From NCBI RefSeq assembly GCF_015207245.1, contig NZ_JADEXF010000146.1, positions 1-7,415 on the forward strand: 7,415 nt of DNA. Direction: 5' to 3'. Every line of letters starts with the position of its first letter. The stretch's first letter is position 1. This document shows positions 4,248 to 7,175 of this stretch, one piece after another. The notes under the pieces were generated by a model. The model searched no databases, had not been told where the DNA came from, and saw nothing but the letters and a program-made list of their open reading frames with translations. Origin of the DNA: Nostoc cf. edaphicum LEGE 07299 (GTDB taxonomy: Bacteria; Cyanobacteriota; Cyanobacteriia; Cyanobacteriales; Nostocaceae). The translations under genes and the position numbers were made by a program.

Positions 4248-4545
4248 CTAGAACGAACCGTCTGTTGATTTCGATAGCTCTTCATGGGCGCGCGTCGCCT
4301 GCAACCGTTCCTCGACAGCCGGCGCGATCGCCGTAAGGGCATCACTTCCGGCAACGAACAACTTCGGCGGATTCTCCATCCCGACAATTTTGACCAGAGC
4401 ATCCACCTGCCGAGTTCCTCAATCATGCGGGCCGTTTCTTGATTGTCAGCGACCACCACATTAGCGCCGTCGTGCGGCCAATGCCCCTCCCCGCTCCGGT
4501 GACAAAGGCCACCTTACCTGTGAAGTTTCTATTCGAGTTGGGTAG
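4248..4545 (-). pseudogene. Collapsed short-chain dehydrogenase gene (N- and C-terminal pieces in three frames)
   Basis: Three minus-strand frames together spell parts of an SDR. The first, from about 4545, gives NSNRNFTGKVAFVTGAGRGIG with the TGxxxGIG cofactor loop. A shift of frame then gives GANVVVAD-NQETARMIEELG. A second shift gives VDALVKIVGMENPPKLFVAG through EELSKSTDGSF and a TAG at 4248-4250, resembling an SDR C-terminus. Against the SDR part of the chimeric gene at 4571-5452, this copy lacks exactly 22 bp between two GGCGCT hexamers and 15 bp after GTCGCTGAC. Nearly all of the middle, including the catalytic Ser-Tyr-Lys region, is gone. The C-terminal piece looks like a different SDR subtype from the N-terminal piece, so it may be a scar joining two genes. 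No start codon is evident. It cannot make an active enzyme. Confidence 0.8.
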
Positions 4546-4570: not shown

Positions 4571-5452
4571 TTACCGACTGAGATGCTGATTGAAAAAGGA
4601 CGCAAGCTTGTCCCACGGGATAAGGTTTACTCGATCGTACAAATCGACGTGTCCCGCGTTCGGAACGATGTAGAGATCCTTTGGCTCGGCTGCACGCTTG
4701 TAAGCATCTTCACTGAACTCTCTGGAGTGTGCATCTGCCCCCGTGATGAACAGCATGGGACGAGGCGAAATCGTCTCGATGTCGTTGAACGGGTAGAAGT
4801 TCCCGAACTTGACGATGCTGGTCAGTGTCGGGTGCGTTGTCAGGTTCGGCGACGAACTTTTGGGGGTGTATTCGCCTCTGGAAGTGCGGTAAAAGTCATA
4901 AAACTCACGCTGAATGGGGTGGGTGTTCTTGTTAAGCTCATGCACCGTGCCGCCCGTGTATTTGGTCTCGCCGCCGGTGAACTCCACGTAGCGCTGTTCA
5001 GCCGCCTCTGCGATGGCTATCTTTCTTTGTTCGAGGGTTGTCGAATGCCTCAGCCCATTACGGTAGGCCGCACCCATGTCATACATGCTGACCGTCGCAA
5101 TAGCCTTCATGCGCGGGTCGATCTTGGCGGCACTGATGACGAAGCTGCCGCTGCCGCAAATCCCAAGAACGCCAATCCGGTTCCTGTCAATGAATGGCCG
5201 GGTGCCCAGAAAATCGACCGCAGCACTGAAATCCTCGGCTTGCGTCACGTTGCACTTGACGGCGATCGCTCGTCCGCCGAGTTCTTCGATCATGTGTGCC
5301 GTTTCTTGATTGCCCTGTTCTAAAACGTCGGCGACCACTACATTAGCGCCCTCACGGGCAAATGCCAGCGCCGTAGCTCGACCGATGCCGTTCGCTGCTC
5401 CAGTCACAAACGCAACTTTTCCTGTGTACTTTCCATTCTCGTTCGTTTTCAT
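4571..5452 (-). CDS. Chimeric ORF: SDR N-terminus fused to alpha/beta hydrolase C-terminal domain
   Basis: A 293-aa uninterrupted frame made of two unrelated families. Residues 1-74 are the start of a classical SDR: TGAANGIG (17-24) forms the NAD(P) loop, Asp42 ends strand 2 and KCNVT lies at 66-70. From about residue 73 (EDFSAAVDFLGTRPF) it becomes a dienelactone-hydrolase/YcjY-like alpha/beta hydrolase. The nucleophile elbow GICGS has Cys99, and likely acid Asp240 (ITGAD) and His268 (NAGHVDLYD) complete the triad. The hydrolase lacks roughly its first 80-100 residues, including the usual oxyanion-hole strand, and the SDR lacks its catalytic half. Activity of either type is doubtful. ATG 5452 has AAAGGA at 5461-5466, eight bases upstream, and lies 57 bases after the cupin stop, so it is probably co-transcribed and translated. 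Most likely a deletion fusion of two operon genes; the domain calls are firm. Confidence 0.85.
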   Translation of the reverse strand: MKTNENGKYTGKVAFVTGAANGIGRATALAFAREGANVVVADVLEQGNQETAHMIEELGGRAIAVKCNVTQAEDFSAAVDFLGTRPFIDRNRIGVLGICGSGSFVISAAKIDPRMKAIATVSMYDMGAAYRNGLRHSTTLEQRKIAIAEAAEQRYVEFTGGETKYTGGTVHELNKNTHPIQREFYDFYRTSRGEYTPKSSSPNLTTHPTLTSIVKFGNFYPFNDIETISPRPMLFITGADAHSREFSEDAYKRAAEPKDLYIVPNAGHVDLYDRVNLIPWDKLASFFNQHLSR

Positions 5453-6114: not shown

Positions 6115-6882
6115 ATGAACGCTGCCAAAACGAGTGAAAAGCCCGATCGCGATTTAATGAACGACCCGCAGGCAAAGCGCGAGGTAGACAGAGCGCAAGC
6201 CAACAGAGACGAACTGAAAGAGCTGATTGCACACGCGATTCCTCATGATGGGGCGATTGAGCCGCTCAAAGGCTTGCACTTTAACCGCTCCTCCTCGCCT
6301 TCGGAATGCGTTCATAGTGTCTCTATCCCTGCGTTTTGTGCGATCGCTCAGGGCAGCAAAGAAGTTCTTTTGGGTAGCGATCGCTATCAGTACGACCCGA
6401 TGCATTATCTGCTGGCTACGGTCGAACTGCCGATTGTCAGCCAAATTCTGGAAGCGTCCAAAGCGCAACCGTACTTTAGCCTTCGCCTCGATCTCGACCC
6501 TACTCTCGTTGGCTCAGTGATGGTCGAGGCAGGGTATCCCTCATCGCGTAGCCGTGCTGATGTGAAAGCGATTGACGTAAGTCCATTGAATGCAAATCTG
6601 TTGGACGCTGTAGTGCGGCTCGTCAGGCTTTTGGATTCCCCTGCTGAAGCTCATGTTCTCGCACCACTGATTAAGCGGGAAATCATTTACCGACTCCTGA
6701 TGGGAGAGCAAGGTAATCGGCTCCGTCATATTGCAGTTCTGGGTGGCTACACCTACCACATCGCCAGAGCCGTCGAGCAACTTCGTAAAGACTTTAATGA
6801 GCCGCTTCGGATTGAAAACATCGCACGAGAGCTGGGAATGAGTGTATCGGGCTTCCACCATCACTTCAAGATCAGGATTTAG
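6115..6882 (+). CDS. N-terminal fragment of the YqhC-like regulator
   Basis: The part a gene caller would report as a gene: 255 aa from ATG 6115. It holds the complete sensor domain and the first helix-turn-helix, then four foreign residues (KIRI counting the shared Lys) and a TAG. Without the second HTH an AraC-family protein is not expected to bind its operator normally. It could still fold and dimerise or bind ligand. A TTG at 6091 gives an eight-residue longer frame, but ATG 6115 is the better choice. Confidence 0.7.
6834..6870 (+). repeat. 37-bp direct repeat, copy 1, in the regulator's first HTH
   Basis: Begins GGGAATGAGTGTATCGG and ends CATCACTTCAAG. It encodes most of the recognition helix region [12 protein letters not shown] and is the original, in-frame copy. 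It is identical base for base to 6911-6947, with a 77-bp period. Confidence 0.95.
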
Positions 6883-6899
6883 TTGCTACCAAACATTTA

Positions 6900-7175
6900 A
6901 TGTTGCATCAGGGAATGAGTGTATCGGGCTTCCACCATCACTTCAAGTCTGTCACTGCAATGAGTCCCTTACAGTACCAAAAGCAACTGCGGCTCCAGGA
7001 GGCTCGCCGTCTGATGCTGGGGGAAAAGCTTGATGCTACCAGTGCTGCCTACCGCGTGGGTTACGACGATGCCTCGCATTTTAATCGCGAGTACAAGCGG
7101 CTTTTTGGTGCGCCACCAATGCGCGATGTGGAGAGGCTGCGAGAAGCTGCTAGGGAGACTGCTAGTTCAATATGA
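6900..7175 (+). CDS. C-terminal fragment of the YqhC-like regulator
   Basis: A 91-aa frame from ATG 6900 ([19 protein letters not shown]). It carries the duplicated recognition helix of HTH1 and the whole of HTH2 ([26 protein letters not shown]), ending in a polar tail. No ribosome binding site is evident before ATG 6900 or the internal ATG 6915. It lacks the first half of HTH1 and all of the sensor domain. Translation as a separate protein is possible but unproven; it is better read as the downstream half of the broken gene. Confidence 0.6.
6911..6947 (+). repeat. 37-bp direct repeat, copy 2
   Basis: Exact second copy of 6834-6870, placed after 40 unrelated bases (6871-6910). Those bases include the palindrome AACATT-T-AATGTT at 6892-6904 and ATCAGG at both of their ends (6871-6876, and 6907-6912 running into the repeat). 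Because the period (77 bp) is not a multiple of three, the duplication shifts the reading frame. Confidence 0.95.

Follow-up and report, generated by a model that had tools for sequence, protein, structure and literature searches.

A spacer-length, plasmid-related insert between 37-bp direct repeats interrupts a regulator gene in a Nostocaceae genome: a probable case of off-target CRISPR spacer integration

The window, i.e. the whole stretch of 7,415 nucleotides analysed here, corresponds to contig C449 in a draft assembly from the Nostocaceae (4.99 Mb in 997 contigs, 72.7% complete, contamination estimated at 0.09%). It carries a gene for an AraC-family regulator that is read as two separate frames (Table 1). 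The 5′ frame features the AraC_N domain (PF06719, E 4.6e-53 in a Pfam domain search) and stops at a TAG at 6880–6882, within an inserted segment; the 91-residue frame beginning at 6900 holds most of the HTH domain (HTH_18, PF12833, E 4.9e-21). An earlier note on this DNA described the regulator frame as broken by 77 inserted bp between perfect 37-bp repeats, and both the sequence and the open reading frames bear this out. Arithmetic on the sequence likewise agrees with its statement that removal of the 77 bp yields one frame of 327 residues from the ATG at 6115. The premature stop would be expected to cost the regulator its function.

Table 1. Features of the interrupted regulator gene and of the insertion site (positions in the window)
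Feature	Position	Strand	Basis and remarks
8-mer TTGAAAAC	6812..6819	+	Identical to an 8-mer conserved in CRISPR leaders
Regulator, 5′ part (AraC family)	6115..6882	+	ORF list; start at ATG 6115 or TTG 6091; TAG within the insert
Target duplication, copy 1 (repeat-like unit)	6834..6870	+	Exact match of the 37-mer
Insert, read as a spacer	6871..6910	+	40 bp; the frame starting at 6873 matches the core of the plasmid protein family
Target duplication, copy 2	6911..6947	+	Exact match of the 37-mer
Regulator, remaining HTH part	6900..7175	+	Separate 91-residue frame, ORF list

The two copies of the 37-mer are exact, offset by 77 bp and separated by 40 bp, as had been claimed, and two matches arose in none of 200 shuffles. 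The bases immediately outside the two copies differ, which limits the duplication to 37 bp or less and makes the insert 40 bp or more. The checks proposed alongside the original description included a search for the insert elsewhere in the genome and a comparison of the locus in sister strains. With up to three mismatches allowed, the insert is single-copy in its own assembly, and its own place was likewise the only hit among 217 Nostocaceae genomes and among 388 genomes of the class (own genome counted in each set). A repeat search found no terminal inverted repeat in it. Among the relatives, 75 of 79 loci have a distance of exactly 37 bp between the flanks, i.e. no insert, and the other four (L085, L086, L089 and L090) have no scorable site; the long form carrying the 77 bp occurs in none of the 75. 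This uninterrupted site indicates that the 77 bp are an insertion rather than an ancestral feature. BLASTN alignments with the nearest loci show 95–97% identity on either side of the break, with the 37 bp covered twice.

By sequence comparison, the 40 bp are related to a plasmid gene family. A search of a plasmid collection gave four matches, the best two being the Nostoc plasmids pNLP3 and pn2 (35 bp, 85.7%, E 0.04), where the match falls within a hypothetical protein gene slightly upstream of a single-strand-binding protein gene. Such a value is insufficient alone, because the AT-rich interior of a repeat unit on another contig, C945, described below, matches plasmids of unrelated hosts at E values as low as 0.006. 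The claim of a plasmid relation rests instead on codon register and on a control with shuffled and random 40-mers. When read in one frame, the insert encodes 12 residues, 11 of which are identical to the conserved core of a family of cyanobacterial plasmid proteins, and its six base differences from pNLP3 within 12 codons include four that are synonymous. Across 115 homologues, 11 of the 12 residues are common to 6 proteins and 10 of 12 to 17. When 30 loci were aligned to the insert, 18 fell in the same codon register, at 26 to 32 of 40 bases; L117 and L094 represent one and the same plasmid, and two additional rows that reach 24 are matches by chance. In the control, the best match of the insert to any 12-residue window of the 115 proteins was 11, where 2000 dinucleotide shuffles and 2000 random Nostoc 40-mers reached 8 at most (0/2000 of each reached 9). 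At the DNA level, the donor family matches the insert in no more than 32 of the 40 bases. Among 208 Nostocaceae genomes, 23 have the family. It also occurs on 11 plasmid records, each from Nostoc, Tolypothrix, Fischerella or Anabaena, and seven of these records span the part with the motif; it is absent from the own assembly. Phages and viral contigs yielded no convincing source for the insert. The donor may have been a plasmid present in this lineage.

The family itself (e.g. L093:5022–6119 and L094:5509–6249) is widespread on cyanobacterial plasmids and has no confident Pfam match. Its genes sit near ssb, and in pNLP3 ardA directly precedes this hypothetical protein/ssb neighbourhood.

The dimensions of the unit were compared with those of the resident CRISPR arrays. 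The genome's arrays, on contigs C74 and C945, have a repeat of 37 bp, the same length as the duplication, and 22 spacers of 30–40 bp. The insert lies within this range, but in its upper tail, as one of the 22 own spacers is at least 40 bp long (40 bp exactly). Among the 150 genus spacers listed, which come from three of 46 genomes with arrays, four are 40 bp and ten are at least 40 bp. The combination of a repeat-length duplication with a spacer-length, plasmid-related piece is the footprint expected of Cas1–Cas2 integration, here outside the arrays. On neither strand does the 37-mer fold better than its shuffles (z 0.40 and 0.04), whereas the resident repeat reaches z −2.94; lacking the repeat's hairpin, the new unit would probably be inert as CRISPR.

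The integration site was further assessed for junction features. In 16 ungapped comparisons of the site with the genome's own leader–repeat junctions and repeat, random sites did equally well in a fraction of 0.34 to 0.97, so that the site showed no likeness above the random level. Off-target sites that resemble the leader–repeat junction have been reported for type II-A (PMC6895254, in excerpt); as this is another CRISPR type, such resemblance is not a strict requirement here. The 8-mer TTGAAAAC, present once in the window, precedes the left junction by 14 bp; it is found in both own leaders, where it lies 30 bp from the junction, and in four of five relatives' arrays among those listed. Of random sites, 0.21% carry it in the 60 bp upstream. 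We regard it as a lead and not as proof, because it was noticed post hoc and its spacing differs from that in the leaders. The first duplicated base is a G, matching the guanine preference of Cas1 given in the available part of PMC6895254, and the opposite end does not fit.

Taken together, these data lead us to propose, at a probability of roughly 60%, that an off-target spacer integration truncated the regulator, which would then not be an evolved switch. A Cas1–Cas2 integrase probably joined a 40-bp prespacer, whose source may have been an invading cyanobacterial plasmid, to a 37-bp-wide site outside CRISPR. Gap repair would then have duplicated the 37 bp, leaving a repeat–spacer–repeat unit within the regulator gene. 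In canonical adaptation, as outlined in the excerpt of a commentary, one end of the prespacer is attached at each border of the repeat, on opposite strands, and the repeat is thereby duplicated (PMC4940900). According to the available parts of the cited papers, integration outside arrays occurs in vitro (PMC6895254; PMC10011333), by a type V-C Cas1 (PMC13034035) and upon Cas1–Cas2 overexpression (PMC11788318). The weakest link of the proposed spacer integration is that neither cas1 nor cas2 had a match in the own assembly (completeness 72.7%); cas1 is present in 44 of 53 genus genomes.

The same lesion could have arisen if a long-staggered break had been filled in, duplicating the 37 bp, and a 40-bp plasmid piece had been captured at the joint, with no CRISPR enzyme involved. 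Such filler repair needs neither cas genes nor a junction motif, in keeping with the absence of cas1 and cas2 matches from the own assembly and with the junction comparisons above. It fails, however, to predict jointly that the duplication should equal the resident repeat in length, that the insert should fall in the spacer range and that its source should be a plasmid family, and we therefore consider it unlikely. Still less probable is an assembly or library artefact, for which the fragmentation and incompleteness of the draft offer some grounds; an artefact would have to produce a flawless duplication of 37 bp and also, between the two copies, a foreign piece of 40 bp, in a genome whose contamination estimate is 0.09%.

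Phase variation may run by slippage between direct repeats, and the earlier note had suggested such an arrangement for the locus, with a one-off loss of function considered equally possible. In a switch of this kind, the regulator would be turned off when the 77 bp are gained and on when they are lost. The perfect 37-bp repeats do permit slippage deletion, and slippage between them could in principle remove the insert. However, slippage could not restore the insert once lost, because the 40 bp are foreign and single-copy, and the presence of the short form alone in the 75 scorable loci of relatives gives no sign of a maintained switch. With an insert that is akin to plasmid coding sequence, the proposal is not supported, and we regard it as highly improbable. 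The broken frame and the perfect repeats of that reading stand, its phase variation lacks support, and the CRISPR-like repeat–spacer geometry had been overlooked. A tiny mobile element with target duplication is scarcely credible, since the flanking direct repeats that it would explain enclose an insert that is single-copy in its own assembly and without terminal inverted repeats in the repeat search, and even 28-bp duplications, as in E. coli, are called long relative to those of DNA transposons (commentary excerpt, PMC4940900).

The proposed spacer integration can be compared with several known systems. Non-canonical, or off-target, Cas1–Cas2 spacer integration was described by Nivala, Shipman and Church (2018), as cited in the available parts of PMC9456107 and PMC11788318. 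The regulator locus resembles it in that a spacer-length fragment lies outside arrays between copies of its target, as double-ended integration leaves it. It differs in its setting, a conserved gene in a natural cyanobacterial draft genome with a plasmid donor family, and in a site without a junction motif, where the enzyme is only presumed. The 2018 study is said to discuss natural sequences too. With canonical adaptation at the resident arrays (C74, C945), the locus shares a 37-bp unit and an insert within the observed range of spacer lengths; unlike those arrays, it has no leader, no resident repeat sequence and no hairpin, and comprises one unit only. Ectopic spacer acquisition in Streptococcus thermophilus also places a spacer at an unusual position, but does so within existing CRISPR arrays (PMC7999890 and PMC5338259, in excerpt), whereas the regulator insert lies in an ordinary gene. 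Slippage-based phase variation likewise involves direct repeats able to lose the DNA between them; here there is no sign of two forms, and the intervening DNA is foreign and single-copy. In the parts of this literature that were available, we found off-target integration (in vitro or upon overexpression) and ectopic integration within arrays, and no natural gene disruption of this kind.

If the proposed integration is correct, the locus offers a natural scar in a conserved gene, with a nameable donor family and an empty site in 75 relatives' loci, and would show that adaptation carries a mutational cost in nature. It would also provide a searchable signature, i.e. a repeat-length duplication around spacer-length mobile DNA outside arrays, and would bear on the origin of new CRISPR loci. 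A broader and more doubtful suggestion is that CRISPR adaptation writes plasmid memories into the ordinary genes of wild cyanobacteria, making the immune system both a mutagen and a seed of new repeat–spacer units. If so, the scar described here may not be the only one in this lineage, as near the array on C945 there is a 38 + 34 bp unit that is single-copy in the nearest relative (G121).

This unit (L096:1472–1581) comprises a perfect 38-bp duplication around 34 bp and lies approximately 1.1 kb from the CRISPR array. It sits in a dispersed intergenic repeat, and two other relatives lack that repeat at this place. It is possibly a second ectopic unit and possibly a product of repeat biology.

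Near-repeat scans covered 0.86 Mb from this genome and 1.17 Mb of DNA from elsewhere (an earlier scan covered 1.24 Mb). They list many perfect near-repeats, by eye largely simple or protein-internal, so a repeat–spacer geometry cannot by itself serve as proof of integration. A duplication of 36–38 bp with a gap of 34–40 bp was found three times in own DNA (the window, C945 and C351) and once in other DNA (L068, a repetitive stretch). The C351 example (L237:6096, 36 + 39 bp) was rejected as a further event: it is a protein repeat inside one frame of 1287 residues, and the region aligns at full length in the nearest relatives.

Further features lie elsewhere in the window. A frame at 4571–5452 fuses the first ~80 residues of a short-chain dehydrogenase to part of an alpha/beta hydrolase, and its two parts match separate places in relatives' loci among the matches listed (e.g. 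L014). Beside it, 4409–4471 resembles 5276–5353 of the dehydrogenase part, at 89% and 81% over two short stretches, and so is a dehydrogenase remnant or a partial duplication next to the fused frame. Lastly, an intergenic tandem array at 2893–2945 consists of 6.5 copies of the 8-bp repeat AGCAGGGG.
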